Assembly (NCBI RefSeq): GCF_001187785.1
Contig: NZ_CP012154.1
Location: forward strand, 1,730,501-1,794,500
Source: Wenzhouxiangella marina
GTDB lineage: Bacteria; Pseudomonadota; Gammaproteobacteria; Xanthomonadales; Wenzhouxiangellaceae
Length of the DNA stretch: 64,000 nucleotides
Direction: 5' to 3'
Shown: in pieces, positions 15,340 to 32,164 of the stretch
How positions within the stretch are numbered: position 1 is the first letter of the stretch
Layout: each line of letters begins with the position of its first letter
Notes under the pieces: model-generated
The model's database searches: none
Seen by the model: only the letters and a program-made list of their open reading frames with translations
Told to the model about the DNA's origin: nothing
Position numbers and translations under genes: made by a program

Positions 15340-18300
15340 TTAGGGGATGGCGCAGTCGAGCTGCTCGAGCTGCGTCAGGCGCTCCGGGAAGAGCATGCCC
15401 GCACCGACCGTCGGGTCGATCGCCTGATATTCGGCCACTGCATTCAGGCAGTCGGTAAAGCGGATCGTCAGGCTGCCCCAGGGTTCCAGGACGACCTCGC
15501 CCGGGTCGAAGGCCGAGCCGAAGCGCGTCCCCACCGGTCGGAGCATCTCGGGGAAATGGGCGATGCCCTCGGCGATCTCCCCGTTTCCGACCAGCCATTG
15601 CTGGTGCCCCTGCGCATCGTAGCTGTACCAGGCAACGAACAGCGCGCCGTCGGCCACTTCCTCGATGAACCAGCCCTGACCCGATCGCTGCGGCTCGAAC
15701 CACTGGCCGGACACGCCGGGGCGCGCCGGTTCGGCCGGGCGCGGCTCGCTGCCGCAGGGCAGGCCGGGGATTTCGATGAGCCGATCGAAGCGCTGCTCGC
15801 CACTGCCCCAGTCCTCGGGTCCGGTCCAATGGGCCACGCCGGCATTGCAGTCATGGAATTCCATGCTCAACTGTCCCCAGGGAACGAGCTCGAAGCTGTC
15901 GGGGTCGAAGTCCACACCGAAGCCCTGGCCCCGGCTGACGAAGACTTCGTCGAAGACCATGCGGGCACCGTCGATGGCGCCGATGCCGACGAGCCAGGCC
16001 TGCTCGGCCTCCGCGTCGCTGTCCGGCGGGTAGGTGAACCAGCTCATGGCCGCGGTGTTGTCGTTCAGGCGCTCGACCAGCCAGCCCTCGCCGGCGCGTT
16101 CCGGAGCGAAGAAGTGCCCGCTGGTGCCGGCCACGGTCTGATCGATGCGGGCGCTGAACGCGAGCGATACGGGGGCATCGAGACCGTTCGCCCCCGGTTC
16201 GACCACGGTCTCGAGGAAGGCACCCGTTTCGCCGTCGTAGCGGAGCACCGCGTCGCGCTCGCGATCGGCGACGTAGAGATCGCCCTCGGGCCCGAAGGCC
16301 AGGGCGCGCGCGTGGATCAGCCCACCGCGGCCACTCGGAATGAATTCGTCGAGGAATCCGGCATTGAGGTCATAGCGGAGCACGTTGGCGGCTTCGCCGT
16401 TGGCCAGGTACAGGCGTCCCTGGGCGTCGAAGGCCAGATCCCAGGGATCGACGATGCGGCCGTTGTCCGGGCCGGCGAGGTCGGGTAGACGCTGTCCGGT
16501 GGCCGCCGAGAAGGCCAGGATGCGATTGCCGGTGGCCTCGGCGACATAGAGACGCAGAGCGATATGGGCAGCCGCGCGCAGGGCGAGATCGAGCTGTTCG
16601 TTCCAGTTCGCCGGTTCCCGGGTCGGCTCGGCGCCCTGCAGGCGCGTCAGCAGCCGGCCCTGATCAGCGCTGTAGCGCTCGATGGCCGTGTCGCCGAGGA
16701 CGACGAACTGGTTGTTGGGCAGGGTGGCCATGGCGCGCGGAAATGCGCTGAGCAGATCGTTCGGCTCCGGTCGTTGCGAGCCGAGGAAGACATCGATCAG
16801 TCGCCCGGACAGACGATCGTAGCGACGCACATCGCCATTGGCGAGCAGATAGAGCCGTCCTTCGGAATCCGCGATCAGATCGGAGTAGCCGGTCAGGATC
16901 GGCCCGGGATTGACGCGCTCGGGGCGCAGGGCCACGCTGCGAAATTCCCCATCGATGCCGAAGGCCAGGACCTCGTTGCTGCCGGAGGAGACGACCAGCA
17001 GTTCCTGATCCGTGTCGGCCTCATCGGCCAGTGCCCGAGGACTGAAGACCAGGGCAGGGTCCGGGTCCGGGTCGCCCTGGCCGTCGAAGGGATCGAAGGG
17101 GAAGGGGTCGTCCCGATCGAGCTGGCCGTCCTGATCCTGATCCAGAGCGCTCGGGCCAGGTCGGCTCACCGACTCGCTCGAGATCGAGCCCCGGTAGCTG
17201 GCCAGGATCGGTGCGAGCTGCAGGATTTCCGCCGCATTGTTCGCGCCGGTGCCGGGGGCGCTCGAACCACAGGGCGCGCCGCCGCACTGGATGGCCGGGT
17301 TCGAGAACACGTCCAGGCGTCGGTAGCGGTCCTGATCGCCGGTGCCGAAACTACCCATTATGCTGTGCAGTTCGCCGAAGCGGATCCAGGCGTAGTTCGA
17401 GCGCTCCGGATCGTCACCGCTGGAGCGGCTGCGCTGGTGCTCGGCGTTCAGATTGTGGCCCAGCTCGTGGGTGAAGACCGAGTCGGAGCAGACCGACCAG
17501 TTGCTGAAGCCGTCGTTGTCGATATGGACGCCGTAGCTCGGGTCGTATCGGCCGTTCTCGAAGAACGGAAAGAAGGCGATGCCGCAGCTGCCACGGGTCT
17601 CGATGTCGTGGGGCCAGGTGAAGGCGACGATGTCCGCCCCCAGGGCGTTGCGCTGCGCGGCGAGCGTGCCCAGTCCGGCCACCGGATTCCCGGCCAGGGC
17701 CTGCTGCAGGTTGCCCAGGGTTTCGCCGTTCTCCTCGCTGGCCCGGTAGTCGACCAGGGTCTGACCGACCAGGCGCACCGCCACCGGCACCTGGGTGTCG
17801 ACGAAGGTCTGGTTGGCGATCGCGACGAGATGGTTGAGGCGGGTGGTGATCAGGCCGTCCGGGTAGCGCTCCACCATGCTCGGCGGATAGGCGAACATCA
17901 CGTCGATCAGATGGGCGTCATCGGAGGCCGGCTGCGCGATCGCTTCCTGGCCCGAGGCCATACTCGCCGCGGTCGACGCGATGGTCCTGGCCGATGGCTC
18001 CAGCACGTCGTGTTCGAAGGCATCGACGCTCAGCTTCGGGTCATTGACGTCGACCAGCCAGCTGCCGGCCGCGTCGCTGTGCACGAGGAACAGGCCCTGT
18101 TCGGTCTGGATTCGTCCGAACAGACCCTCCTCGCCCCAGGTCAGGAGGGCTCGGGGCAGGGCCTCGTGGCCGCCGTCGCGGACCAGCAGGCTCTCATCGC
18201 CGTTGGCGTGTGCGACGCGGCGCTGGACCGGTCCCGCGATGCGCCCCGCCGGGCCCAGGTCCAGGCTCAGCCAGTCGCCGCGAGGACGTGCGGCGGCTCG

Positions 18301-18603
18301 GATCTGCAGCAGTCGTTCCCCCGGCCACTGTTCGAGGCCAGAGACGGCCAGGGCCGAGGCCGATCGGGGCGAGTCGTCCAGCTGCCAGGCCAGCTCCGGC
18401 GCCGCGTCCTCGGGGAGGTCCGGCGCGATCGCTTCTGCTGCGCTCGGCGCGTCGGCCGACTCGGTCGGAGGGCTCGGCTCGCTGGTCGATTGCAGCGCGA
18501 AGGGCAGGGCGATCAGTGCCGCGATCATTGCAACAATCATTACGCCGATCGTTACGCCAATCGTTACGCCGAGAGGGCCGGCAAAGGAACGGATATCGGA
18601 CAT
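15340..18603 (-). CDS. secreted/anchored zinc metalloprotease with NHL-like propeller and duplicated C-terminal module
   Basis: A 1087-residue protein. An N-terminal transmembrane segment (~12-37) contains a short internal repeat (GVTIGVTIGV). A reprolysin-like metalloprotease domain (~235-470) has HELGHNLNAEH at ~379-389, with the three zinc histidines but Asn where the family usually has Gly, and a candidate Met-turn SIMGSFG. A Ca-binding-type Asp repeat (DQDQDGQLDRDDPFPFDP) follows. Residues ~535-815 have NHL/beta-propeller-like repeats. Two related ~110-residue C-terminal modules follow (SGHFFAPERAGEGW and SGQWFEPQRSGQGW, each with a PWG...F.DC core). It probably degrades or binds extracellular material. 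It follows the DUF4124 gene by 3 bases. Confidence 0.82.
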   Translation of the reverse strand: MSDIRSFAGPLGVTIGVTIGVMIVAMIAALIALPFALQSTSEPSPPTESADAPSAAEAIAPDLPEDAAPELAWQLDDSPRSASALAVSGLEQWPGERLLQIRAAARPRGDWLSLDLGPAGRIAGPVQRRVAHANGDESLLVRDGGHEALPRALLTWGEEGLFGRIQTEQGLFLVHSDAAGSWLVDVNDPKLSVDAFEHDVLEPSARTIASTAASMASGQEAIAQPASDDAHLIDVMFAYPPSMVERYPDGLITTRLNHLVAIANQTFVDTQVPVAVRLVGQTLVDYRASEENGETLGNLQQALAGNPVAGLGTLAAQRNALGADIVAFTWPHDIETRGSCGIAFFPFFENGRYDPSYGVHIDNDGFSNWSVCSDSVFTHELGHNLNAEHQRSRSSGDDPERSNYAWIRFGELHSIMGSFGTGDQDRYRRLDVFSNPAIQCGGAPCGSSAPGTGANNAAEILQLAPILASYRGSISSESVSRPGPSALDQDQDGQLDRDDPFPFDPFDGQGDPDPDPALVFSPRALADEADTDQELLVVSSGSNEVLAFGIDGEFRSVALRPERVNPGPILTGYSDLIADSEGRLYLLANGDVRRYDRLSGRLIDVFLGSQRPEPNDLLSAFPRAMATLPNNQFVVLGDTAIERYSADQGRLLTRLQGAEPTREPANWNEQLDLALRAAAHIALRLYVAEATGNRILAFSAATGQRLPDLAGPDNGRIVDPWDLAFDAQGRLYLANGEAANVLRYDLNAGFLDEFIPSGRGGLIHARALAFGPEGDLYVADRERDAVLRYDGETGAFLETVVEPGANGLDAPVSLAFSARIDQTVAGTSGHFFAPERAGEGWLVERLNDNTAAMSWFTYPPDSDAEAEQAWLVGIGAIDGARMVFDEVFVSRGQGFGVDFDPDSFELVPWGQLSMEFHDCNAGVAHWTGPEDWGSGEQRFDRLIEIPGLPCGSEPRPAEPARPGVSGQWFEPQRSGQGWFIEEVADGALFVAWYSYDAQGHQQWLVGNGEIAEGIAHFPEMLRPVGTRFGSAFDPGEVVLEPWGSLTIRFTDCLNAVAEYQAIDPTVGAGMLFPERLTQLEQLDCAIP

Positions 18604-18606
18604 GGC

Positions 18607-19086
18607 TCAGTTTCTCGGTGGGTCCTGGTGCAAGGGGTCGGGGGTTCGGCGTGTGCCCGGGAACGGGCCGCTCAGCGCGGAGTATCGGCTCGGTCGTTCC
18701 GGGATGCTGGCCGGCGGCAGTGGGCGTCGCTCCGGACGCCAGTGGCGCGGGTACCAGGGCAGGGGCGTGGTCTGCACCTGTTCGACGATGACCACCGGCG
18801 CTGGAGGCGCGGCGGTCACTTGTTCGCGCAGGCGCCGTCGTTCGGCCTGCTGTTCGCGTCGGTGGCTCAGCAGGGCCTGTACGGCCTCGTTGCCGGTCTT
18901 CAGATCCTTGCTGTGTTCGATGATGCTCAGGGACGCCGTCGTGTCGTAGGGGGTGGCGCTGGCGTCGCAGGGCTGATCGGCGAAGACGACGGTCCCGTCG
19001 ACTTCGCAGCGGTAGATCAGCGTGGTCGGATCGGCCTGCGAGACCGAGCAGACGATCAGGCCGAGTAGAAGACAAAGCGTTCGCAT
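18607..19086 (-). CDS. DUF4124-type periplasmic protein
   Basis: A 159-residue protein with a signal peptide (MRTLCLLLGLIVCSVSQA), then the short DUF4124-like pattern YRCEVDGTVVFADQPC, a basic helical stretch (SHRREQQAERRRLREQ), and a Pro/Arg-rich C-terminal tail. DUF4124 proteins are common and functionally unassigned in gammaproteobacteria. Its stop is 3 bases before the metalloprotease ATG, so they are an operon pair; it might assist that protease's export or regulation (inference only). Confidence 0.78.
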   Translation of the reverse strand: MRTLCLLLGLIVCSVSQADPTTLIYRCEVDGTVVFADQPCDASATPYDTTASLSIIEHSKDLKTGNEAVQALLSHRREQQAERRRLREQVTAAPPAPVVIVEQVQTTPLPWYPRHWRPERRPLPPASIPERPSRYSALSGPFPGTRRTPDPLHQDPPRN

Positions 19087-19142
19087 GCAAGCTCCATCGA
19101 ATCACCGGAGTCGATGTTAGCAGAACGCGATGCGGCGGCCGT

Positions 19143-19913
19143 TCAGGCGCCGTCGGGTCGGTGGAAGAGGCGGCGCAGGCGGCCGGCGAGATTGTCCGCA
19201 TTGACGACGATGATGAAGACCTTTCGCAGGCGGCCTTCCGGGCAGTCAAGGCGACGGACACCGTGCCAGGAATTGCCCTGGCGCTGGAACAGCAGCGAAC
19301 GATTGCCCATGGCCTTCGCGGTCCAGGCGCGGTCGAAATCGTCGAAATCCGGCGCGCTGGCACGCGAGAAGCGACCGCCGTCGTCGAGCACCACGGTCTC
19401 ACCGCCCCAGCGCTCATCCCATTCGTCCGGGGTGTTGAAGTAGAAGATGTGGGAGCCGAGCTTGCGCTTGGCATCGCAGTGCGGCGAGACCGAGGCCCCG
19501 CGCGGAGCGTAGTGCCAGTGGTAGCTGAGGCGGAAGCGACGCGTGGCGAACAACCGGGCCAGCCAGTTCTGGTAGACGGGGCCGTTCAGCTCTTCGATCA
19601 GCTGGTGCCAGACCGGATGGATGTCGAGTCCGGGATGGTATTCGAGGGCGTAGCGATCATGGGGGGTCTGTCCATGCGCTCGTTTGCGGCCGAAGCTGGC
19701 CTTCATCTGCTCGACTTCGGGCAGATTGGCGCGCAGCAGGTCGAAGGCCTCGTCGGTCAACAGGCCCTCGGGGTTCAGCCAGGGGTAGGGCTGAGCATCG
19801 CGGAACTGGCCGGTGGGGATCGCGGCCAGGGCCTCGCCATCGAGCAGGGTCGGAAGGGCTCGGCCCTGGGCCGGGGGCTGCGGGCGGGTCAGGGTTTCGG
19901 CGTTGCTGGACAT
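19143..19913 (-). CDS. 2-oxoglutarate/Fe(II)-dependent oxygenase-like protein
   Basis: A 256-residue protein with the iron- and 2OG-binding facial triad pattern of the double-stranded beta-helix oxygenases: H145 and D147 in SPHCDAK, H217 in SWHGVRRL, and R230 for 2-oxoglutarate. It probably hydroxylates a small molecule, lipid, sugar or protein; the substrate is unknown. It is the last of seven tightly packed minus-strand genes and starts 14 bases after the glycosyltransferase/ELM1 gene, so a role in tailoring that operon's product is inferred. Confidence 0.8.
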   Translation of the reverse strand: MSSNAETLTRPQPPAQGRALPTLLDGEALAAIPTGQFRDAQPYPWLNPEGLLTDEAFDLLRANLPEVEQMKASFGRKRAHGQTPHDRYALEYHPGLDIHPVWHQLIEELNGPVYQNWLARLFATRRFRLSYHWHYAPRGASVSPHCDAKRKLGSHIFYFNTPDEWDERWGGETVVLDDGGRFSRASAPDFDDFDRAWTAKAMGNRSLLFQRQGNSWHGVRRLDCPEGRLRKVFIIVVNADNLAGRLRRLFHRPDGA

Positions 19914-19927
19914 GCGGTTTCTTCAGG

Positions 19928-22183
19928 TCAGATCAGGGTGAGTTGGGCGGCGGCGTCAGCGGCTTCTGCCCTGGATTGGATGGCCAGCAGGCCACGTGCC
20001 TGGCGGACCAGGGCCTCGCATTCGCTGCTCGGGCGGAAGGACGCCGGGGCAGGCTGGCCGAATGGCGCGGCCAGGCCCTGATCGTACAGCGCCTTGAGCA
20101 GGGCGTTCGTATCGCGTGGCGGCAGGATCCAGTTCCGCTCGACCCAGCGGGCGCAAAGATAGGTCAGGCCCTGCTGGGGACGAATGCTGCCGCGCCGATT
20201 GAAGCGTGGGCGCGTGGCCTTGTCGGCGATCGCCCGACTCAGGCGGGACCAGGCTCCATCGGGGCGGCGAGACAGCGGCCAGACGAGGAATCCCTTGCCG
20301 CGACTGGCGGCGTCGGCGAGCATGGATTCGCTCTCGCCGGTGACGACCAGCTCGTCGCTGTGTTCCAGGGCCAGACGGTAGGGATTGTTCTCGTCGCCCG
20401 GCTGGAAGACATAGAGCAGATCCGCCTCGCCGAGTGCCGCCTTCAGCTCGCCGATCCGATTCAGGGATCGACGGCTGGTGACGACCAGCAGGCGGGCCTT
20501 CTGTTCCGCCGCCCAGGCCGAGGCCGTGGCTGCCAGGCGGCGGGCGTCGTCGGCCGAGAAGCGGTGCGACTTCGAGGCGCCGCCGATCAGCAGGGCAGCG
20601 CGGCGCGGTGCCTCCAGCCACTCGGACCAGGCCTCCCGCGCGCCTCCATGATCGGCCTGGCCGCGGTTGAGCGGCAGCAGGCTGAGGAGACGACGCGGGG
20701 CAGCGGGCAGGCCGAAATGGCGGCACTGGATCACGACACCCCCGTGCTCGGGAGGCGGGCCGGCCTTGCGGCCGCTCAGGATCAGACGCAGGCGAGGACG
20801 CTGTCTGGCCAGCGCTCGTGCGTAACGCGTCGGAAGCCAGCCGCCGGCGACCACGATCGAGATCGTGTCCAGCTCGGGTGGTTCGGGACTGCGCCCGAAC
20901 AGGCGTCCGATCGCGAAGCCCGCTTCAGTGGATTCGATGCGGTGCTCGCGCACCGGTCTGCCGGTCTGTCGGCCGAGTTCCTCGGCGATCGCCCGGGCCT
21001 GTTGATTGTGTCCGGGCTTGCGATGCAGCAGGACCAGGATATCGCCCTCGTCGGCCGGGCCGCCGCTGCAGGTGACCGCGCCCGAGAGCCCGCTGCGATG
21101 ATTCAGTAGCCAGCGCGTGTTCGGGTGGCGGCGGCTGGCCATCTGCAGCTGCTGCAGCCAGAAGTGTGCGGTCCGGCGGTATCGGGTGCGATTGCTGAAC
21201 GGTTCAGTCAGGTTGACGGTCAGCTCGGGCGTCGAGGCGAACAGTCTCGACAGCACCCAGGGCACGTCGGCGTCGGGGATCTCCGTCAGCCAGTCCCGGA
21301 CCGTGATCGAGGCCTGCTGCCGTTCGTGGCGGCTGGCGGACAGCAGGGCCTGGATGCTTTCTCCATCATCCCGGGAGGACAGCTTCAGCTTCGTCCTCGG
21401 CCAGTCCCGCGACGGACGGGTGGCCGAGACCGGCATGAAGTCCCTGGACAGGGCCTCGGCCTCCAGCTCGGGCCAGAGTGGGTGGGTCGGGTTCGGGTAG
21501 TAGACGAACTGACCCGGAAACGGCTGCCAGGGCTGCGTGTGCAGAGTGGTGAAATGAACCAGCTTCGACTCGCCGGGGCTGTACTCGCTGTCGCGTGCGT
21601 TCCAGCCATCGTCGAGATCGCCCCAGAGGCGGGCCTGGCGGGCTCGCGCTTCGAGCGCCTTGCGCTTGAGACGGCGCACGTCGTGTGGGTTCCAGACCTC
21701 GGCCATGCGCTTGCAGTCGATCAGCATGACCGAGGTGTCACGATCATTGATCGACAGGAACCCGGCCTTGGCCATGTCCGTGTCGAACAGTTCGGCCGGA
21801 TCGGTCAGGTAGACCTGATCGGCATCGTTGTAGATGGCCCGGCCTTCGAATCCGGCGAACTCCGGAATGGCAAAACGGTAATTGGTGAAGCCGGTCAGCC
21901 AGAAGCTCCGCCGGAAGCCCTTGAGGTCCCGGAGCAGGTAGATCTCGTAGATCCGGGCAGGGTCCCGATGCTTCTCGATCGACCACAGGAAGACGTGTTC
22001 GGCGCGGAACTGCCCGCGTTCGGTCCCGAGAAAGATCCGGACCGGCGGCTTGTCCGAGGGTCGTTGACCGGGCTTGACGCCCAGCACGATGCGGTCCGGT
22101 CGGTTCTGACGTGCCGGTGGACGGTCCGCGCTGAACAGGGCCGGTGTAAGCCCCCGTGCGATGCGTTGGATGAGCAATGCCAT
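19928..22183 (-). CDS. fusion: glycosyltransferase-like domain + ELM1-family domain
   Basis: A 751-residue two-domain protein. The N-terminal part (~45-330) looks like a GT-A glycosyltransferase: VRIFLGTERGQFRAEHVFLWS, then AIYNDADQVYLTDPAELFD with a DXD at D120-D122, and GESKLVHFTTLHTQPW. The C-terminal part (~380-690) matches the ELM1/nucleoside-diphosphate-sugar-epimerase-like family (VLLHRKPGHNQQARAIAEELG, ALLIGGASKSHRFSADDAR, VTGESESMLADA), which is GT-B-like in bacteria. No signal peptide is seen, so it is probably cytoplasmic and membrane-associated. It starts 22 bases after the LpxL-like gene. Substrates are unknown. Confidence 0.8.
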   Translation of the reverse strand: MALLIQRIARGLTPALFSADRPPARQNRPDRIVLGVKPGQRPSDKPPVRIFLGTERGQFRAEHVFLWSIEKHRDPARIYEIYLLRDLKGFRRSFWLTGFTNYRFAIPEFAGFEGRAIYNDADQVYLTDPAELFDTDMAKAGFLSINDRDTSVMLIDCKRMAEVWNPHDVRRLKRKALEARARQARLWGDLDDGWNARDSEYSPGESKLVHFTTLHTQPWQPFPGQFVYYPNPTHPLWPELEAEALSRDFMPVSATRPSRDWPRTKLKLSSRDDGESIQALLSASRHERQQASITVRDWLTEIPDADVPWVLSRLFASTPELTVNLTEPFSNRTRYRRTAHFWLQQLQMASRRHPNTRWLLNHRSGLSGAVTCSGGPADEGDILVLLHRKPGHNQQARAIAEELGRQTGRPVREHRIESTEAGFAIGRLFGRSPEPPELDTISIVVAGGWLPTRYARALARQRPRLRLILSGRKAGPPPEHGGVVIQCRHFGLPAAPRRLLSLLPLNRGQADHGGAREAWSEWLEAPRRAALLIGGASKSHRFSADDARRLAATASAWAAEQKARLLVVTSRRSLNRIGELKAALGEADLLYVFQPGDENNPYRLALEHSDELVVTGESESMLADAASRGKGFLVWPLSRRPDGAWSRLSRAIADKATRPRFNRRGSIRPQQGLTYLCARWVERNWILPPRDTNALLKALYDQGLAAPFGQPAPASFRPSSECEALVRQARGLLAIQSRAEAADAAAQLTLI

Positions 22184-22205
22184 GCGTTCGATAACCCCGA
22201 TTCGT

Positions 22206-23102
22206 TCAATCGCTGATGAAAGGGTAACGGGCCCAGCGACGCTGGTGCCAGGACCACCATTCTGGATGCTCGAGAATGGGTGCTTCCATGATCCGAGTCA
22301 ATTTTTCCACGCTTTGTTCCAGTGGCTCGTTCTTGTCGAGCGTCGCTTCCTGGTGAATCTCGAAGCGCCAGTTGGGTTCGACGCCGCACAGACGCGCGCT
22401 GAGAATCTCGCAGCCCGTTCGACGGGCCAGCTCGGCCGGGCCGGGCGGCATCGGCATCCGCTTGTTCAGAAACCGCTGTTCGACACCGCGCTTGATGCCC
22501 TGATCCATCAGGATGTAGATGATGCCGCCGCCCTTGAGGGTCTTGAGCATCTGTCGAACACCGACGGCCGCGGGTTGGGCGGGGATCGCGTTCAGGCCCA
22601 TGCGCGGAATGCCGCGGGCGTAGAAGCCGGGCTGGATCTTGTTCGATTCGCGGTGAACGACGGACACGGGGTAGCCCCGTTCGGCCAGGTGGGTCGCCAT
22701 GGCCACGCCGTTGCCCATGTGCCAGCCCAGCAGCAGCACGCCGCGGCCCTGTTCGAGGGCCTTGCCCAGCACGTCCAGTCCGGTGACTTCGCAGCCCTCG
22801 GCGACCTCGGCCGGCGTGAGATGACCGGAATACATGGCCAGCACTTCGAGGATCGCCCGGTCGCTGAGTCGATAGGCACTTTCCAGCCACTGTCGGCACT
22901 GCGGATCGCCCGCGGGCCGGTCGAACAGCCGTTCCAGCTGACGTCTCAACGAGCGGCGCTGCTGGAACGCGAATCGGTGGTGCCATCGGCCCAGCCGATC
23001 CCCGCTGCGGCGGACCGCCGCCATGCCTCGTCGGGCCTGCACTGCGGCAAGGAGCCGCAGCAGGTGAAAGCCCATTCGCCGGCGGAACTGTCTAAGCGTC
23101 AT
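22206..23102 (-). CDS. LpxL/HtrB-like lysophospholipid acyltransferase, catalytic acid missing
   Basis: A 298-residue protein resembling the lipid A late acyltransferase family: an Arg-rich N terminus, RGVLLLGWHMGNG, a conserved Arg in VVHRESNKIQPGF, GIIYILMDQ, and the C-terminal PEWWSWHQRRW typical of LpxL-like enzymes. The catalytic H-x4-[D/E] box reads H128-MGNG-V133, so the acidic residue is replaced by Val. It may be inactive, use another acid, or act on a different substrate. It overlaps the ABC transporter gene by 11 bases, so translation is coupled. Confidence 0.85.
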   Translation of the reverse strand: MTLRQFRRRMGFHLLRLLAAVQARRGMAAVRRSGDRLGRWHHRFAFQQRRSLRRQLERLFDRPAGDPQCRQWLESAYRLSDRAILEVLAMYSGHLTPAEVAEGCEVTGLDVLGKALEQGRGVLLLGWHMGNGVAMATHLAERGYPVSVVHRESNKIQPGFYARGIPRMGLNAIPAQPAAVGVRQMLKTLKGGGIIYILMDQGIKRGVEQRFLNKRMPMPPGPAELARRTGCEILSARLCGVEPNWRFEIHQEATLDKNEPLEQSVEKLTRIMEAPILEHPEWWSWHQRRWARYPFISD

Positions 23103-24846
23103 CGCCGGCCTCGGCCTTGCCTTGCGAGGATGCGGGTTCGAGGCGGATCACCTGATCGGCGATGTCGACCAGCGCCCGATCATGGCTGACGGCCAGCAGG
23201 GTCAGTTGGCCCTTGAGGTGCTGGACGGTCTCGACGACCGCGGATTCGGCCACCTCGTCGAGGCTCGAGGTCGCCTCGTCGAGGATCAGCAGGCGAGGCT
23301 GATGAATCAGGGCGCGTGCGATCGCCAGACGCTGGCGCTGGCCACCGGAGAGGCGGCCGCCGCGTTCGCCGAGCACCGTGTCGAGGCCGTCGGGCAGGGC
23401 GCGGACGAACTCCCCCGCATCGGCCTGTTCGATGGCGGCGAGAATTCGCTCTCGCGGGATGCCGTCTTCGCCGAGCGTGAGGTTTCTGAGCAGGGTGTCA
23501 TTGATCAGCAATGGGTCCTGCGGGACGTAGCCGATCATCCGCCGCCACTGTCGGTGGTCGATCTCGTCGAGGGGCTGACCATCGATCAGCACCCGACCCG
23601 AATCGGCGTGCAGCAGACCGGCAGCCAGGTCGATGATCGTCGTCTTGCCGGAGCCCGATGGGCCGGTCAAAACGGTCAGTTGGCCGGCCGGGATGCGGAA
23701 GCTCAGGCCATCGACGACCGGTTCGCGATCGTAGGCGAAGCGAACGTGGTCGAACTCGATGCCCTGCTCGAGGCTGGGCGTGCGATGGCCGCGCGGCGGT
23801 TCGCGTTCCGCTTCGGCCTCTTCGATGGTCTGGCGCAGCGACCAGTAGGCCGACTCGCTGATGGCCATGTGCTGCAGCGAGCGCTGCGCCTTGGCCAGGT
23901 GGTTCACGGAGCGGGCGATGAGGAAGATCATCATCATCACCGTGGCCATCGGCAGGTTCATCTGCACGAGGAAGTAGAAGAAGCCGATGCCGACCAGGAT
24001 CGCCAGCAGCGGTTCCTGGAGGGCCTGGAGACCCGCCTTCGACAGGACCTGATGGCGAAGGGCGGTTTTCAGATCCCGGGTCTGGCTCGACATGAGCGCG
24101 TCGATGTGCTCTTCGCGGGCCATGGCCTTGAGGGGTTTGACCGCGCCGAGCTGGTCGGTCATCACGGCCAGCATGGAACTCATCAGTCCGGTCTGATCGC
24201 GGCCGGCGCGACCGGCCGTTCGCACGAGAAAATGCAGCAGGCCCAGCAGGAAGCCCCCGAAGGCCAGGGCGATCAGGCTCGCCTTGAGCGAGATCATCAG
24301 GGCAAGGCTGGCGTAGATCAGGGCGTTGATGCCCTGGGTGGCCATCACCGCGCCGTGAAAGAAGCCCTCGGAGGCGCGATGGGCCTCGGTGGCCACCGCG
24401 TTGGACAGCTTTCCGACCGGCTGACTGAGGTAGTAGCGCCAGCGACTCGCGGTGACGGCGCGGATCAGGCGCAGGCGCAGGTCCGTGGCCACGTGCGCCA
24501 CGGTGTAGCCGACCTGACGATTGGCGAGCAGCACGATGGCCGCCTTGACCGCGATCAGCACCACACCCAGGGTCAGCAGGCTGGTGGTGGTCGGTTCGAT
24601 GCCCAGCCAGGCGACCACCTCCAGTGCGGCCTGTTCAGGCGCGGAGGGCTCCTCGTCGGTGCCGGTGGCCAGGTTGAGCATGCCGAGGATCATCGACAGG
24701 CCCAGGCCGTCGAGGACACCGGCGATGATCAGGGCCAGCAGGGCCAGGGCCGTGCGCCCCGGATAGGCCCTGGCGAAGGCCAGCAACATGCTCGCAGCAC
24801 CGCCTTGCGTCAGCGTGGCCACGGTGGAACTCGACGGTTTGCTCAT
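23092..24846 (-). CDS. MsbA-like ABC exporter (fused TMD-NBD)
   Basis: A 584-residue half-transporter: six predicted membrane helices (~15-320), then an ATPase domain with Walker A GPSGSGKTT (~390-400), a Q-loop in GYVPQDP, the signature LSGGQRQRL, Walker B LLILDEATSSLD and the switch His in VSHDRALV. The fold is that of type IV exporters that flip lipids or export peptides. The ATG at 24846 overlaps the previous stop as TGATG. Located between lipid-kinase/nucleotidyltransferase and acyltransferase/glycosyltransferase genes, it most likely flips the lipid made by this operon (inference). Confidence 0.88.
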   Translation of the reverse strand: MSKPSSSTVATLTQGGAASMLLAFARAYPGRTALALLALIIAGVLDGLGLSMILGMLNLATGTDEEPSAPEQAALEVVAWLGIEPTTTSLLTLGVVLIAVKAAIVLLANRQVGYTVAHVATDLRLRLIRAVTASRWRYYLSQPVGKLSNAVATEAHRASEGFFHGAVMATQGINALIYASLALMISLKASLIALAFGGFLLGLLHFLVRTAGRAGRDQTGLMSSMLAVMTDQLGAVKPLKAMAREEHIDALMSSQTRDLKTALRHQVLSKAGLQALQEPLLAILVGIGFFYFLVQMNLPMATVMMMIFLIARSVNHLAKAQRSLQHMAISESAYWSLRQTIEEAEAEREPPRGHRTPSLEQGIEFDHVRFAYDREPVVDGLSFRIPAGQLTVLTGPSGSGKTTIIDLAAGLLHADSGRVLIDGQPLDEIDHRQWRRMIGYVPQDPLLINDTLLRNLTLGEDGIPRERILAAIEQADAGEFVRALPDGLDTVLGERGGRLSGGQRQRLAIARALIHQPRLLILDEATSSLDEVAESAVVETVQHLKGQLTLLAVSHDRALVDIADQVIRLEPASSQGKAEAGDDA

Positions 24847-25775
24847 CAACGAAATCCTCCCTGCCGCCAGGTCCGCCAGGCCAGGCCCCAGGCCGCCCGG
24901 CGGGGATGGGCGCGCATGCGCTCGGTCGGTTCGATGCGCACGCCGCTATGGCGCTCGACCTTCCAGACCAGGTAGTCGATGCCGTTGGTGAAGGTGCCGG
25001 CGGCCTTGAACAGGCGCGCCAGATTCATCGCCTTGCCCCAGAAGCGACGCAGGCCCCAGGCGAGCGCGCTGTTCAGCCGGCTCAGGGCGCCGCGACGGCT
25101 GGCCAGGCGCGCGTCCTGCCAAAGCAGGCCCGCGCGCGGCTCGGCCGCAAGGGCCGGGGCCATGTACTGCCAGTAGTCCGGGTCGTGGCCGATCAGGGTC
25201 GCGGCCGCCCCCGGGGGCTCCGGTCGGAGTTCGCAGCGATAGGTGCGTCGCATGGCCTCGGTCCAGAATTCAGCGGGGCTTCGAGGCTCCCGCAGCAAGG
25301 GGGCGACGCGACGGGCAAAGCTGACCGCGGCGTCTGCGCGCAGCACGGCCAGACGATTCCGGACGCCAGGCTCGGCGTGGGCAATGCGGATGGGCTGGCA
25401 GAAGCGGGCCCAGAAATAATGATCGTGGCGAGCGCGAACGCGCCGCTCGAGCTGGTCGAGGCGGATCACCGCGTACTTGCAGCGCAGGGTGCCGCTCGGG
25501 CCTTCGGTCTGCAGGTAGTAGACGTTGGGTGGCAGCAGGAGGTTGAGTGCGGCGGCCAGGCGACCGCCGAGCGCCGGTCGATAGCGGTCGACCAGCACCA
25601 GCAGATCGACCAGGCCCTCGCCGGCATCGTTCTTGCGACGGCAGGAGCCATAGAGCAGAACGCCCTGAACCGCTGCGCCGTGGCGCTCGCGAATGGCGTC
25701 CACCAGGGCCTGCGTGCCGTCCGGGACCTGATCCAGGGCCGGATCGCCGGCCATGAAGTCGACCAGCGCGCTCAC
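24846..25775 (-). CDS. Tam41-like nucleotidyltransferase (possible CDP-diacylglycerol synthase)
   Basis: A 309-residue protein with features of the Tam41 family: a nucleotidyltransferase motif LLYGSCRRKNDAGEGLVDLLVLVD with G43-S44 and acidic D57, then LLLPPNVYYL and LRCKYAVIRLDQL, echoing Tam41's KVYFNP and KYGVI stretches. Tam41 makes CDP-diacylglycerol from phosphatidic acid and CTP; the same reaction here is inferred. The start is GTG at 25775, overlapping the kinase stop (GTGA). No membrane segment is evident; a basic C terminus could bind the membrane surface. Confidence 0.7.
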   Translation of the reverse strand: MSALVDFMAGDPALDQVPDGTQALVDAIRERHGAAVQGVLLYGSCRRKNDAGEGLVDLLVLVDRYRPALGGRLAAALNLLLPPNVYYLQTEGPSGTLRCKYAVIRLDQLERRVRARHDHYFWARFCQPIRIAHAEPGVRNRLAVLRADAAVSFARRVAPLLREPRSPAEFWTEAMRRTYRCELRPEPPGAAATLIGHDPDYWQYMAPALAAEPRAGLLWQDARLASRRGALSRLNSALAWGLRRFWGKAMNLARLFKAAGTFTNGIDYLVWKVERHSGVRIEPTERMRAHPRRAAWGLAWRTWRQGGFR

Positions 25776-26770
25776 GGCTGCAGAAACCTGAAGGCCGGGC
25801 CGGTGAGGATGTCGAGCGGCAGGTCCTTGCGGTAGTCGTGTTCCTGCCCATCGAGGCAGATCTGCTCGATGCCCTTGATCTCGACCCGCTCACAGCGTCC
25901 GCTCAGGTAGCCCTGCTCGGGCTGCATGGACGCCGAGAAATGCCCGCTGGCGGCTTTGGGCAGACGTAGCCAGAAACGCCGGGCGTTCGCGCCGATGGCA
26001 TCCAGGCGCAATTCGCCCTGACCGCGGTCGGCGTAAGGGTCGATCCAGGCGCCCGGGTGCTGCAGAGTGGTCAGCAGCAGAATCCGGATTCGGCCATCGA
26101 GACGTCCCAGGTCCTCGGCATCGACGGACAGCTCCGTCGGTGGGAAGGGCAGGCCGCCGAACAATCGGCGGACGCCGAGCTGCATGACGCGCCAGGCCGA
26201 CGATGCATGACCCTGGCGCAGCCAGCCGCGCCCGCCGCTGCGGTAACGGTGGCAATCCCGGATGACGTCGTTGACCCGCGCGCCGGCGATGAAGAAGCCG
26301 TGTCGGTCGTTCTGCCCGGACTGGCGGACGATCAGGCTGTGGCGAACCGTGGTCCGGAGTGACTCGGGCTGCTCGATCGCGCGTTCCAGCTGGCGCAGCG
26401 GATCCGCGTGCGTGCCCAGGTCGCGAGCCGTGTAGTTCGTGCGACCACCGCCAAGCACGAGCAGGGGCGGGCGCTGCGACTCGTCGGACAGCTCGGCCAG
26501 ATCGGTGATGACGGCCTGCACCGTGCCGTCGCCGCCGCTGACGGCCAGAATCGACGGCGAGTCGTCGATCGCCGCCCGCACCGCCGCCCGCATGGCTTCT
26601 GGCGTCTCGGCTTCGATCAGCTCCAGCCCGTGCCTGCGAGCCATTGCCCGGAGGCGATCGGCCCGGCCGGCGAGGCTCATGCGGAAGCTGCGCGGATTGA
26701 TGAGCAGGCGCGGCGGCGCCGTGGCCGGGAGCGGACGCTGCGATTCATCCAGAGGGGCGGTGGAAACCAA
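25772..26770 (-). CDS. diacylglycerol kinase catalytic-domain protein
   Basis: A 332-residue protein of the DAGK/sphingosine-kinase fold: LLINPRSFR near residues 22-30, the ATP-binding SGGDGTVQ at ~78-85 and LLVLGGGRTNYTARDLG, where family members usually have GT.N..A. It should phosphorylate diacylglycerol or a related lipid. The start is TTG at 26770 without an obvious Shine-Dalgarno; the next ATG lies after the conserved NPRS segment, so TTG is preferred. Its stop overlaps the Tam41-like GTG. It would supply phosphatidic acid to that enzyme (inference). Confidence 0.83.
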   Translation of the reverse strand: MVSTAPLDESQRPLPATAPPRLLINPRSFRMSLAGRADRLRAMARRHGLELIEAETPEAMRAAVRAAIDDSPSILAVSGGDGTVQAVITDLAELSDESQRPPLLVLGGGRTNYTARDLGTHADPLRQLERAIEQPESLRTTVRHSLIVRQSGQNDRHGFFIAGARVNDVIRDCHRYRSGGRGWLRQGHASSAWRVMQLGVRRLFGGLPFPPTELSVDAEDLGRLDGRIRILLLTTLQHPGAWIDPYADRGQGELRLDAIGANARRFWLRLPKAASGHFSASMQPEQGYLSGRCERVEIKGIEQICLDGQEHDYRKDLPLDILTGPAFRFLQP

Positions 26771-26792
26771 GGGTGTCGGGCGCTTCGAGTAA

Positions 26793-27920
26793 TCAGCCCG
26801 CCATTCTACCGGATGCGGGCGCCCGGCCCGCTGCCCGCCAGACCGCGATCGCGGAGGCTTCGGGTCGGGTGTCGCTGGCCGAACGCAGCAACTGACCGAC
26901 CACGCGGAAGAAGCTGGAGTGGTTGGCCGCCGCGTAGGGCGAATCCGGCCCGAAGCGATCGACCAGGCGGCGATGGGCCTCGCCCATGCTGTGGTAGGGC
27001 AGGCCCGGGAAGAGATGGTGCAGGGCGTGGTAGCGCAGACCGACCGGGAACAGCCAGCAGGTCAGCCAGGTCTGACCGGTGATGTTGACCGCATCCTGCA
27101 GCTGGGCGATGTGACTCATGGCCTGACCGGGGTTGTCGTAACGATGCGCCGCCAGATTCCGGACCCAGTTCAGGCCCAGGGTGAAGGCGTGCAGCACCCA
27201 GGCCATCAGCCAGTGAATGGGCTCGACGGGTCCGAAGACGGTCATGCCGACCCAGAACAGCACCCAGGCCAGACACAGGGCCTCGACGATCAACAGGTGT
27301 CGTCGGTCCTTCTTCGGAAAGGGCTTGCGGTAGTAGGGATTCGACACATAGGCCGAGCCCCGCTCGAGAAGCCAGCGCCGCAGCGGGGGAATCAGCCAGG
27401 ACAGGGGCGCGGCGATCGCGAAGCGGGCAAAGGCCATCAGCGACAGCAGTGGCACCTTCACCAGGTAGAGCAGGGTGTCGCGCAGCGGGGCAGCGGCCAG
27501 GGGCAGGTACTCGCCGTCGTCCGGCGTGCCGAAGTGGGCTCGTGTGTGATGGCCGATGTGATTGCGATAGAGCACCCAGGGCATCAGCAGGGGCACGCCG
27601 ATCAACAGGTTCCAGGCGCGCCGGAAGTTCACCAGCACGCCTCGGGGCATGTGGATGATCTCGTGCATGAAGGTGCCGGCGCGGTAGAACGCGATGCCGG
27701 CCACCAGCAGGCCCAGCAGCTGCCAGCCGGAGAAGGGCGTGGCCATGAAGTACAGCACGGTGCCGCTCCAGGCCGCGGCGGCGCTCAGCAACAGATCGGC
27801 CCAGTACAGGACCGGGCGATGCCCGAACAGATCCGCCACTTCCTGGTGCGCAGCGCGAATCCACTGCCGCTCTTCTTCGGGAGTCAGCGGGCCTGCGGTC
27901 GGGACGGTCACTTGAGTCAT
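26793..27920 (-). CDS. membrane fatty-acid desaturase
   Basis: A 375-residue integral membrane diiron enzyme with the three histidine boxes of the acyl-lipid desaturase family: HEIIH (86-90), HIGHH (121-125) and HALHH (298-302), plus H259. Four or more hydrophobic segments surround them. It should insert a double bond into, or hydroxylate, an acyl chain; regiospecificity cannot be read. It is the first gene of the seven-gene minus-strand lipid operon, 22 bases before the kinase gene, and is divergent from the GacA-like regulator across 91 bases. Confidence 0.88.
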   Translation of the reverse strand: MTQVTVPTAGPLTPEEERQWIRAAHQEVADLFGHRPVLYWADLLLSAAAAWSGTVLYFMATPFSGWQLLGLLVAGIAFYRAGTFMHEIIHMPRGVLVNFRRAWNLLIGVPLLMPWVLYRNHIGHHTRAHFGTPDDGEYLPLAAAPLRDTLLYLVKVPLLSLMAFARFAIAAPLSWLIPPLRRWLLERGSAYVSNPYYRKPFPKKDRRHLLIVEALCLAWVLFWVGMTVFGPVEPIHWLMAWVLHAFTLGLNWVRNLAAHRYDNPGQAMSHIAQLQDAVNITGQTWLTCWLFPVGLRYHALHHLFPGLPYHSMGEAHRRLVDRFGPDSPYAAANHSSFFRVVGQLLRSASDTRPEASAIAVWRAAGRAPASGRMAG

Positions 27921-27965
27921 GGGCGGGTTTGCAGCATACTGAGCGAAAGAAGACCTAAGGGGCTA

Positions 27966-28008
27966 CCAACGTTCAGGGCTAAGCCCTGGATGAGCAGGAG
28001 GGCGTTGG
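27966..28008 (+). promoter_or_regulatory. structured leader with GGA motifs before the response regulator
   Basis: CCAACG (27966-27971) can pair with CGTTGG (28003-28008), enclosing a hairpin CAGGGCT/AGCCCTG (27974-27980 with 27982-27988). The Shine-Dalgarno-like AGGAGG lies between. Two GGA motifs (CTGGATG and CAGGAGG) occur, as in RsmA/CsrA targets. Feedback by the Gac-Rsm system is possible but unproven. Confidence 0.4.
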
Positions 28009-28011
28009 CAG

Positions 28012-28659
28012 ATGATCGATATTGTAATCGTTGACGATCACGATGTGGTTCGCAGCGGCCTGAGCGGCTTGCTGAGCGACGATCCGGGCTTCGATGTAGT
28101 TGGAGAGGCGGCCACCGGCGAGCAGGGCATCCGCCTGGCCCGTGAGCTCGAGCCGGACATCGTGTTGATGGACGTGGAACTCCCGGGCTGCTCGGGCCTC
28201 GAGGCCACGGCCAGGATCCGCAGGGCTTCGCAGCGGGTGCGGGTGGTCGTACTGACCGCCCACGCCGAGCCGCCCCTGCCAGCGCGCCTGCTGGAGGTGG
28301 GTGCCAGCGGCTTCCTGTCGAAATCGAGCCCCGCCGAAGAGCTCCTGACCGCCCTCCGGGCCGTGTCCCGGGGCGAGCGCTACCTGGCGGCCGATATCGC
28401 GCAGCAACTGGCCCTGTCGATGCTGCCGGGCACCCCCGACACCCCCTTCGAAGGCCTGACCCCGCGCGAGCTCGAAGTGGCGCTCATGCTGGCCCAGGGC
28501 ATGCGCGTCAAGGCCATCGGCGAGGTCATGAACCTGAGCCCGAAAACAGTAGCCACGCACAAGTACCGGGTGTACGATAAGACCCGCGTGAGCAGCGAAG
28601 TCGAGCTGCTGCGCCTGGCCCTGCGGTACGGCTTGATGAACATCGATCCCGTTCACTGA
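28012..28659 (+). CDS. GacA/UvrY-like response regulator (REC + LuxR HTH)
   Basis: A 215-residue two-component regulator. The receiver (~1-120) has the acidic pair in VDDHD, phosphoacceptor D54 in DIVLMDVELPGCSGLEA, the conserved Thr in VVLTAHAE and Lys in GFLSKSS. The LuxR-type helix-turn-helix (~145-205) includes LTPRELEVALMLAQGMRVKA and LSPKTVATHKYRVYDK. The opening MIDIVIVDDHDVVRSGL is close to GacA/UvrY, which control the Csr/Rsm small RNAs. uvrC, the usual neighbour, does not follow; two tRNA genes do. No sensor kinase lies in the window. Confidence 0.88.
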   Translation: MIDIVIVDDHDVVRSGLSGLLSDDPGFDVVGEAATGEQGIRLARELEPDIVLMDVELPGCSGLEATARIRRASQRVRVVVLTAHAEPPLPARLLEVGASGFLSKSSPAEELLTALRAVSRGERYLAADIAQQLALSMLPGTPDTPFEGLTPRELEVALMLAQGMRVKAIGEVMNLSPKTVATHKYRVYDKTRVSSEVELLRLALRYGLMNIDPVH

Positions 28660-30748: not shown

Positions 30749-32163
30749 TATTCCGGGGGAGTCCAGAGTGATTTCGCGGTCTTTGGCTCGGATTTCCCCC
30801 GATTTCCGGTGCAAGGGCTTTTTGAGGCAGGTTTTGCGCCCGATTGAGCACGCACAACAGCCACCGGGCGCGGGCAAGAGCGCGCGGGTGTAAGACTCTT
30901 GCTCGGGTTGATGGGTTTCCTCGAGCGGATCTTGGAGAGACCGATGCTTGATCGAAGAACGTTGGAGAGACTGGGGTCTTGGGAGGGCTACCGGCTCAAG
31001 GACGTAGTCTGGCCCGACGGCGAGACGGGGACTGTTGAGCTGCACTTGGAGCCCAAACGGAAGGTCATGACCTGTTCGAGCTGCGGGCAGCGCTGTCGGC
31101 AGGTGCATGAGACGGTCATTCGTCGCGTGCGGGATCTGCCGCTGTTCGAGTATCGGGTCGTTTTGGTGGTTCCTCGCCGGCGGATCTGGTGCGAGCGCTG
31201 CGGTGGGCCTCGGCTGGAGCAGCTGAGCTGGCTGAGCCGTTACCAACGCGTCACCGACCGGTTGGCCGATGCCTGTGGTCGATTACTGGAAGGCATGACG
31301 ATTCAAGGCGTTAGCCGCTTCTACGACCTGAACTGGCACACGGTTAAGGCGATCGACATGAGCCGGCTCAAAGCCTCATTGCCTGAGCCGGATTGGTCAG
31401 CCATCCGCTATCTGGCCATGGACGAGTTCGCGCTCCACAAGGGACATCGCTATGCCACCGTGGTGGTCGAACCGATTCAGCGCCAGGTGCTATGGGTTGG
31501 GCCTGGCCGCTCCCGCGACACGGCACGAGCCTTCTTCAAGTGGCTACCCGACGGGGTGTGCATGCGCATCGAGGCAGTGGCCATCGACATGACAACAGCC
31601 TACGAGCTGGAGATCCAGGCGCATTGCCCGCAGGCCGAAGTCGTCTACGACCTGTTCCACGTCGTGGCCAAGTACGGCCGCGAGGTGATTGACCGTGTCC
31701 GCGTCGATGAAGCCAACCGACTGCGCAAGGATCGGCCGGCCCGGAAGGTCGTAAAGTCGGCTCGCTGGCTGCTATTGCGCAACCGCAGGTGCCTCAGTCC
31801 GACTCAGAAGATCCAGCTCCAAGAGCTTCTCGAAGCCAATCAGGCTTTGCTGACAGTCTATCTGCTGCGAGATGAACTCAAGCGGCTTTGGTATTACCGC
31901 CGAGAAGGCTGGGCTCTCAAGGCCTGGGATAACTGGCTCGACCAGGCAATGGGCAGCGGGATCGCTGCGTTACAGCGCTTCGCCCAGCGCCTGAAGCCAT
32001 ATCTTCACGGCATTCTGGCTCGTTGCCGTCACCCGCTGAATACCAGCATCGTTGAAGGGATCAACAACACCATCAAGGTGATCAAGCGCAGAGCCTACGG
32101 CTACCGCGACCAAGAGTACTTCTTCCTCAAGATCCGGGCCGCCTTCCCCGGAAATGCGCGATG
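30749..32163 (+). mobile_element. ISL3-family insertion sequence (ends approximate)
   Basis: One full-length transposase gene is bounded by TTCCGGGG at the left (~30751-30758) and its reverse complement CCCCGGAA at the right (~32146-32153), the conserved cores of probable terminal inverted repeats. TGCGCG occurs just outside both cores, which could be the remains of a target duplication, but flanking bases do not match over the 8 bp usual for ISL3. About 185 bases between the left end and the transposase start hold no other gene. It separates the lipoprotein pair from a 5'-truncated toxin-like gene. Confidence 0.8.
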
Positions 32164-32164
32164 A
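30944..32164 (+). CDS. ISL3-family transposase, apparently intact
   Basis: A 406-residue transposase. An N-terminal zinc-ribbon-like domain has CSSCGQRC and CERCGG (Cys pairs ~43-85), then an HTH-like segment (GMTIQGVSRFYDLNWHTVK) and a DDE domain with YLAMDEFALHKGHRY, AIDMTTAY and a C-terminal IVEGINNTIKVIKRRAYGY containing the catalytic Glu. The ATG at 30944 has GGAG seven bases upstream and suits the family; earlier in-frame starts add 11-15 residues. No internal stop is seen, so the element could be active. Confidence 0.93.
   Translation: MLDRRTLERLGSWEGYRLKDVVWPDGETGTVELHLEPKRKVMTCSSCGQRCRQVHETVIRRVRDLPLFEYRVVLVVPRRRIWCERCGGPRLEQLSWLSRYQRVTDRLADACGRLLEGMTIQGVSRFYDLNWHTVKAIDMSRLKASLPEPDWSAIRYLAMDEFALHKGHRYATVVVEPIQRQVLWVGPGRSRDTARAFFKWLPDGVCMRIEAVAIDMTTAYELEIQAHCPQAEVVYDLFHVVAKYGREVIDRVRVDEANRLRKDRPARKVVKSARWLLLRNRRCLSPTQKIQLQELLEANQALLTVYLLRDELKRLWYYRREGWALKAWDNWLDQAMGSGIAALQRFAQRLKPYLHGILARCRHPLNTSIVEGINNTIKVIKRRAYGYRDQEYFFLKIRAAFPGNAR

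Follow-up and report, generated by a model that had tools for sequence, protein, structure and literature searches.

The closest described system to the locus reported here is the phosphosphingolipid cluster of Caulobacter crescentus (CC_1168-CC_1152), which comprises cpgA-D, spt, cerR, cerS, aasR, acpR and lptC2F2G2, with ceramide genes at CC_1165-CC_1162 and CC_1154, the ceramide kinase CpgB at CC_1160, CpgC at CC_1161 and second LptC/F/G copies (PMC11324152; here and below, statements from cited sources refer to the parts of their text that were available). For CpgB of Caulobacter, ceramide kinase activity was reported (PMC10331486). CpgC was reported to be needed for ceramide phosphoglycerate (CPG) and to carry an InterPro domain resembling that of cytidine diphosphate (CDP)-diacylglycerol synthase, and formation of a nucleotide-activated ceramide by CC_1161 had already been raised as a possibility (PMC11324152); the mechanism of CpgC was left open (PMC12275187). 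In Caulobacter, a possible flippase role was proposed for CC_1166 and a transporter role for LptC2/F2/G2 (PMC11324152), and according to PMC11087976 no sphingolipid flippase or transporter had been identified. The locus compared with this cluster is a seven-gene operon at positions 19143-27920 of a 64,000-nucleotide stretch of Wenzhouxiangella marina DNA (contig NZ_CP012154.1, positions 1,730,501 to 1,794,500; the whole stretch analysed is called the window), in a genome of 3,675,202 bases on a single contig.

The operon was probably a Cpg-type phosphosphingolipid operon that finishes ceramide from a separate cluster around the serine palmitoyltransferase gene (spt; protein, Spt) and carries added enzymes, because its kinase grouped with CpgC-adjacent kinases, its third gene held the position of cpgC and co-occurred with Spt, and, in four relatives, the operon followed spt. 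The lipid handled by the operon was most likely ceramide, and not diacylglycerol or phosphatidic acid.

All seven open reading frames (ORFs) lay on the minus strand, in the order desaturase, lipid kinase, Tam41-like protein, ATP-binding cassette (ABC) exporter, acyltransferase, glycosyltransferase and 2-oxoglutarate (2OG) oxygenase, with gaps of 22, -4, -4, -11, 22 and 14 bases (three overlaps; largest gap 22 bases), as the original prediction, made by a model from the letters of the window, had described. A family was assigned by Pfam to six of the seven proteins and to none for the third (Tam41-like), and the assignments agreed with that prediction in pointing to one lipid pathway with glycosylation, acylation and hydroxylation families and a flippase-type ABC protein. 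Conservation outside the strain, proposed with the prediction as a check on it, was found among 13 further loci from same-genus genomes carrying the Tam41-like gene, which were compared by tblastn: the complete seven-gene set occurred in identical order and strand in 9, and 3 (G014, G013, G021) ended at a contig edge with the remaining genes in order. Identity to the window proteins in these loci ran from about 39% (Tam41-like protein, kinase) up to 83% (2OG oxygenase), with lower identities outside them (L016 kinase 34%; L018 acyltransferase 37%). The gene arrangement kept across relatives is more than chance. Named records with the Tam41-like protein were metagenome-assembled genomes of Wenzhouxiangellaceae (L015, L016) and of a gamma-proteobacterium (L018), and Marinimicrococcus flavescens (L017); L015 and L021 are one contig and were entered once in the counts. 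A sigma-70 consensus scan of 18500-28200 returned no site resembling a promoter, against 0.5 expected by chance, and was uninformative on co-transcription either way.

The lipid kinase (25772-26770, minus strand, 332 amino acids; PF00781, 1.6e-14) was CpgB-like and is most likely a ceramide kinase. In a maximum-likelihood tree of 37 kinases, drawn without characterised YegS, DgkB and Caulobacter CpgB, the window kinase and those of its relatives shared one side of a branch (support 100/99) with 26 CpgC-adjacent kinases, and the opposite side held four paralogues (two from the window genome, one each from G003 and G025). One further paralogue (L151), being a fragment, was kept out of the tree, and L150 was entered with a longer open frame from the same locus in place of its original row. 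A hidden Markov model built from the 26 CpgC-adjacent kinases gave 163 bits with the window kinase and 22-42 bits with three paralogues; the short L150 and L151 rows did not match it. The cut-off of TIGR00147 (YegS/Rv2252/BmrU-type lipid kinases) was not passed by the window kinase (26.4 vs 118.65 bits).

The third operon protein (24846-25775, minus strand, 309 amino acids) was CpgC-like and is proposed to be a cytidine triphosphate (CTP):ceramide-1-phosphate cytidylyltransferase. Its gene held the position of Caulobacter cpgC beside the CpgB-like kinase gene, with a 4-base overlap in the window. Its predicted structure matched solved Tam41 by far best among the matches listed, in line with the Tam41-type nucleotidyltransferase first called from the letters. 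The fold was common to the Tam41 CDP-diacylglycerol synthases (PF09139; PDB 7ecd bacterial, 6ig2/6ig4 mitochondrial); unlike these, the window protein was about 11% identical to Tam41, had no Pfam match, adjoined a CpgB-like kinase and tracked spt. The window protein matched no Pfam or NCBIfam family, PF09139 included, and PF09139 matched 2 of 31 members of the Tam41-like family (best 1.4e-4); a PF09139 search of the window genome and controls returned no match anywhere, controls included, and hence no proof of absence. Searched as a single sequence against PDB the protein returned noise, and a profile search yielded short matches to nucleotidyltransferase motifs (best 0.0025), with no Tam41 among the 12 listed. 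The YGS...D motif is a mark of nucleotidyltransferases. By homology and position, the kinase and the Tam41-fold protein were shown to share their families with CpgB and CpgC, the adjacent pair of Caulobacter-type clusters.

The Tam41-like gene was present in 14 and Spt in 16 of 41 genomes (the window genome and 40 relatives), Spt orthologues being defined by at least 51% identity to the L017 Spt (related enzymes, at most 38%). Spt was found in 14/14 carriers of the Tam41-like gene vs 2/27 non-carriers (Fisher p 3e-9; the genomes are related, so independence is overstated); the Spt of G014 was split in two pieces on two contigs. With a profile of the Tam41-like family and an Spt threshold of E ≤ 1e-70, a phylum set of 398 genomes, including the window genome, had the profile in 27, Spt in 37 and both in 26, with Spt in 26/27 profile carriers vs 11/371 others (Fisher p 5e-31). 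The operon and the ceramide gene set were thereby shown, as judged from homologues, to travel together across genomes. The original prediction had called a Tam41-type enzyme beside a lipid flippase unusual in a bacterium; at 27 of 398 genomes, the Tam41-like gene in a lipid gene setting was not rare. The sole carrier without Spt (G382) had next to CpgC a gene 34% identical to Spt (L110, 10.1-11.2 kb), either a divergent Spt or a paralogue of the same superfamily.

Linkage was close as well. In 25 of 26 loci from the phylum set, CpgB-like and CpgC-like genes were neighbours, and an Spt match occurred within the same stretch (≤20 kb) in 16 of the 26, one of them weak (G382). In L117, L119, L122, L124 and L125, CpgB-CpgC pairs had no spt inside 20 kb, and spt was elsewhere in the genome. 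Among relatives in which operon and spt were on one strand, the operon came right after spt in G018 (44 bases from spt to desaturase) and in G004 and G021 (<80 bases), and followed it in G024 at a distance of at least 238 bases, with the kinase first and the desaturase absent. Operon and spt shared a contig in G002, G005 and G013, with divergent genes between them that included a NeuB-type nonulosonate synthase (by Pfam in G002, by reading in G005 and G013). The divergent genes of G002 (L127, 1878-7824) encoded a sulfotransferase (PF00685), a 464-amino acid protein without family, a GFO/IDH/MocA oxidoreductase, a CTP_transf_3 cytidylyltransferase, and NeuB with a cupin; by reading, G005 (L128, 2862-8874) had ORFs with beginnings like those of G002, and G013 (L129, 9845-11341) a NeuB-like ORF. 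Genes of the G002 type between spt and the operon suggest nonulosonate or sulfate decoration. In G133 (L107), which belongs to another family, a glycosyltransferase/ELM1 homologue and then an ABC homologue (42%) immediately preceded the AasR-like gene in the ceramide cluster.

The Spt of the window genome (G000:C1:2074173-2075351) passed the NCBIfam serine palmitoyltransferase equivalog NF047599 (586 bits, cut-off 500). The 20 kb around it (L099) held, in order, genes for an LptF/LptG-family protein (PF03739), a CpgD-like protein (PF12804), a CerS-like protein, an AasR-like fatty acyl-AMP ligase, a CerR-like protein (PF01370), an AcpR-like protein (PF00550) and Spt. The AcpR, CerR, CerS, AasR and CpgD labels come from homology with the L017 cluster, from gene position and from general protein families, and not from curated models of these names, and the CerS-like protein matched no significant curated family. 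The product of the CpgD-like cytidylyltransferase gene (L099, 5.0-5.8 kb) shared 40% identity with its CpgD-like counterpart in L017 (6.8e-46). On these homologies, the window genome was shown to have the ceramide gene set (Spt with AcpR, CerR, AasR and CerS homologues). In Marinimicrococcus (L017; Spt 625 bits in NF047599, cut-off 500) the Tam41-like and kinase homologues were adjacent and within the ceramide cluster. The cluster also encoded a homologue of the glycosyltransferase/ELM1 protein, a fatty acid hydroxylase (PF04116), a protein that takes the place of CerS and has no curated family, a CpgD-like protein, a metallophosphoesterase (PF00149), two LptF/LptG-type proteins (the first assigned by PF03739, the second by reading), a CerR-like reductase (PF01370), a carrier protein and an AMP ligase; reading and tblastn gave the labels of the last two and of the CpgD-like, LptG-like and kinase genes. 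The gene sets of the Caulobacter Cpg cluster and of the L017 cluster matched. Common to the window genome and the Caulobacter cluster were the CpgB-CpgC-like pair, the ceramide gene set, the CpgD-like gene and an LptF/LptG paralogue; in some relatives spt also adjoined the operon.

Unlike the Caulobacter cluster, the window genome had no CpgA that could be found. The query was the L101 CDP-alcohol phosphotransferase (PF01066) and not Caulobacter CpgA, so that a diverged CpgA could escape it; the 25 genomes searched included 8 operon carriers, neither these nor the window genome had a match, and four weak matches (1e-4 to 8e-4) were all in genomes other than operon carriers. This result bears on ordinary Caulobacter-type synthesis of CPG, with the extra genes acting elsewhere or tailoring the product slightly, which was considered unlikely. 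The CpgB-, CpgC- and CpgD-like genes and the LptF/LptG-family gene would all serve such synthesis, and the first phosphoglycerate of Caulobacter needs cpgB and cpgC by genetics (PMC12275187). CPG2 is nevertheless an unlikely product because no CpgA was found in the window genome, and the extra genes overlap or abut in an order kept over long divergence. Plain CPG2 synthesis was rejected on the search for CpgA with the L101 query.

The original prediction had taken diacylglycerol and phosphatidic acid as substrates, with the kinase making phosphatidic acid, the Tam41-like enzyme making CDP-diacylglycerol and a modified glycerophospholipid being exported. The kinase does belong to the DAGK_cat family, the fold is that of the CDP-diacylglycerol synthase Tam41, and CpgB takes diacylglycerol in vitro (PMC10331486). 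Nonetheless, the likeness to the CpgB-CpgC pair, with a kinase that grouped with CpgC-adjacent kinases and not with the paralogues of the window genome and its relatives, the close co-occurrence and linkage with Spt, and a separate CdsA-family gene for CDP-diacylglycerol in the same genome (PF01148, 2.2e-49) made a glycerophospholipid pathway very improbable. It was rejected on the kinase tree, the co-occurrence with Spt and the CdsA-family gene, and this part of the prediction did not hold.

A Cpg-type phosphosphingolipid operon thus being preferred, the window operon adds to the Caulobacter cluster, in one unit, a glycosyltransferase/ELM1 fusion, a PatA/LpxL-like acyltransferase, an ABC exporter, a desaturase and a 2OG oxygenase. 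The first gene (26793-27920, minus strand, 375 amino acids) encoded a fatty acid desaturase/hydroxylase family protein (PF00487, 4.6e-25) that likely desaturates or hydroxylates the ceramide chain. A PDB search with it returned noise; homologues with 38-41% identity were inside ceramide clusters in three loci of the phylum set (L108, L109, L111), and a DesA-family protein of Caulobacter was reported to hydroxylate the amide-linked chain (PMC11324152).

The ABCB-type exporter (23092-24849, minus strand, 585 amino acids; PF00005 and PF00664), MsbA- and HepA-like, is a candidate sphingolipid flippase by family and location. Its best NCBIfam matches were HepA (272.9 bits, cut-off 725) and MsbA (230.4 bits, cut-off 602), and neither cut-off was passed. 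The acyltransferase (22206-23102, minus strand, 298 amino acids; PF03279, 3.8e-26) is proposed to acylate a glycosylated lipid. It was under the cut-off for all 15 NCBIfam families listed, the best match being a phosphatidylinositol mannoside acyltransferase (73.1 bits vs cut-off 209), and it reached 54.6 bits with LpxL/LpxP (cut-off 297.8). PatA provided the nearest solved structures (8e-8); PatA acylates the sugar on a glycophospholipid. The window acyltransferase shared PF03279 with the PatA phosphatidylinositol mannoside acyltransferase and LpxL and, unlike them, sits in a sphingolipid operon and scored under NCBIfam cut-offs.

The glycosyltransferase (19928-22183, minus strand, 751 amino acids) had two domains, an N-terminal GT-A-like one and a C-terminal ELM1 one (PF06258, 2.7e-25). 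PF06258 matched 4/4 members of its family and PF01501 weakly 3/4 (best 0.066). The N-domain was 57-84% identical to that of the window in 11 homologues, with an NDADQ (DxD-like) motif and a weak GT8 resemblance; a DxD motif is a mark of glycosyltransferases. A PDB profile search with the N-domain returned one match (0.11). Marinimicrococcus (L017) and G133 had homologues inside their ceramide clusters. The full-length fusion in a single frame was found in the window genus, L018 and Marinimicrococcus; in G133 the glycosyltransferase and ELM1 halves were in two adjacent frames (47% and 39%), and in 53 of the 55 phylum genomes with a match it was partial only. ELM1-family proteins are predicted glycosyltransferases of an Acinetobacter outer-core locus (PMC4172580); PF06258 was common to the C-terminal half of the window protein and the ELM1/GtrOC1-type glycosyltransferases, from which it differs by the fused GT-A-like domain. 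The last gene (19143-19913, minus strand, 256 amino acids) encoded a 2OG-Fe(II) oxygenase (PF13640, 1.7e-6) that was 71-83% identical among relatives and is proposed to hydroxylate the lipid; its nearest solved structure was 9ei6 (2.3e-7), a prolyl-hydroxylase-domain protein.

An operon for modification of lipid A or lipopolysaccharide (LPS), in which the LpxL-like acyltransferase, an ELM1-type core glycosyltransferase, an MsbA-like exporter and the oxygenase would act on LPS, was the least probable alternative: the LpxL and MsbA families work on LPS elsewhere, the Acinetobacter locus offers a parallel for ELM1 and LpxC is encoded in the window genome, whereas the MsbA and LpxL/LpxP scores were far under their cut-offs, the acyltransferase was nearer PatA, and LpxC occurred in 38/41 genomes irrespective of the operon while Spt tracked it. 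This alternative was rejected on the NCBIfam scores and the LpxC distribution, and replacement of LPS was rejected on LpxC in the window genome and in 38/41 genomes.

Several observations weigh against a Cpg-type phosphosphingolipid operon. The operon and the spt cluster are 0.3 Mb apart in the window genome. The CpgC label comes from position next to CpgB-like and Spt genes, Caulobacter CC_1161 being outside the comparison, and the TM-scores to Tam41, 0.41-0.47 of the query, were moderate. According to a warning of the tree program, the split between the paralogues and the remaining kinases joins long branches, and Caulobacter CpgB phosphorylates diacylglycerol in vitro at a rate comparable to that with ceramide (PMC10331486). 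G001 and G015, both incomplete assemblies, had spt without the Tam41-like gene, as did 11 genomes of the phylum set (G292 borderline, 2e-71), and the co-occurrence statistics count related genomes as independent. The glycosyltransferase was matched in 1/26 and the desaturase in 3/26 phylum loci, and G024, one of the 13 same-genus loci, had all genes but the desaturase. The LpxL-like and 2OG genes are tied to sphingolipids by operon membership alone, because neither had a match in the 26 phylum loci. The ABC exporter scored nearer HepA than MsbA and its nearest solved relatives were ABCB1-type drug pumps, and the AlphaFold2 model of the glycosyltransferase/ELM1 protein (mean pLDDT, the model's own confidence score, 49.8) was unusable.

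In the pathway proposed for the operon, the kinase would convert ceramide to ceramide-1-phosphate, and the Tam41-fold enzyme would use CTP to form CDP-ceramide or would make the phosphodiester head group in another way. Sugars would be added by the two-domain glycosyltransferase and an extra acyl chain, probably on a sugar, by the PatA/LpxL-like enzyme; the desaturase/hydroxylase and the 2OG oxygenase would alter the chains or the head group. Flipping of the product over the inner membrane would fall to the ABC exporter, and transport on towards the outer membrane to the LptF/LptG paralogues. Because no CpgA was found, the predicted final lipid is an acylated glyco-phosphosphingolipid instead of the Caulobacter CPG2. 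We infer the chemistry, the order of steps and the product from gene content, gene order, co-occurrence and predicted fold. A tentative extension, with a modest chance of being right, is a new outer-membrane lipid class made via CDP-ceramide, a multi-acylated glycosylated phosphoceramide built like lipid A, with its own ABC flippase and Lpt-like route, beside ordinary LPS. In some members of the family the head group might be sialic-acid-like or sulfated, as in gangliosides or sulfatides, because NeuB separates spt from the operon in G002 (and, by reading, in G005 and G013), where it is accompanied in G002 by a cytidylyltransferase of the cytidine monophosphate (CMP)-sugar type and a sulfotransferase.

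Divergent from the operon, a GacA/UvrY-like response regulator was encoded at 28012-28659 (plus strand; 246.5 bits, cut-off 280), and 5 of the 13 same-genus loci had a homologue next to the operon in the same way. A small protein encoded 56 bases after the 2OG gene (18607-19086, minus strand) had no family above cut-off and recurred after the operon in several relatives with 35-39% identity. Further downstream, a 1087-amino acid ORF (15340-18603, minus strand), which by reading resembles a secreted metalloprotease-type protein, was in the same place in three relatives (50-54% identity). A 421-amino acid ORF at 30899-32164 (plus strand) was ISL3-type transposase-like by reading; local G+C fell to 0.62 there, and to 0.51 just downstream.

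The core of the pathway is already known, and the extended operon is a variant new to it. The original prediction of an undescribed pathway failed for the core part, which is described (PMC11324152, PMC10331486, PMC12275187), and stood for the seven-gene combination, which was not found among the matches listed from the open-licence literature. In the same literature, the 10 matches listed of 11 for Tam41 with ceramide and bacteria had mitochondrial, eukaryotic or general lipid titles, and two papers listed contained both Wenzhouxiangella and sphingolipid, each a single time. With a CpgC of the Tam41 fold and a dedicated candidate ABC exporter together in one unit, the operon makes both the function of CpgC and the identity of a bacterial sphingolipid flippase testable, points left open in the available text of PMC12275187 and PMC11087976, respectively. 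The findings suggest that Tam41-type cytidylyltransferases, known from mitochondria, regularly take part in sphingolipid synthesis in bacteria, and that further glycosylation and acylation of phosphoceramides can occur there.

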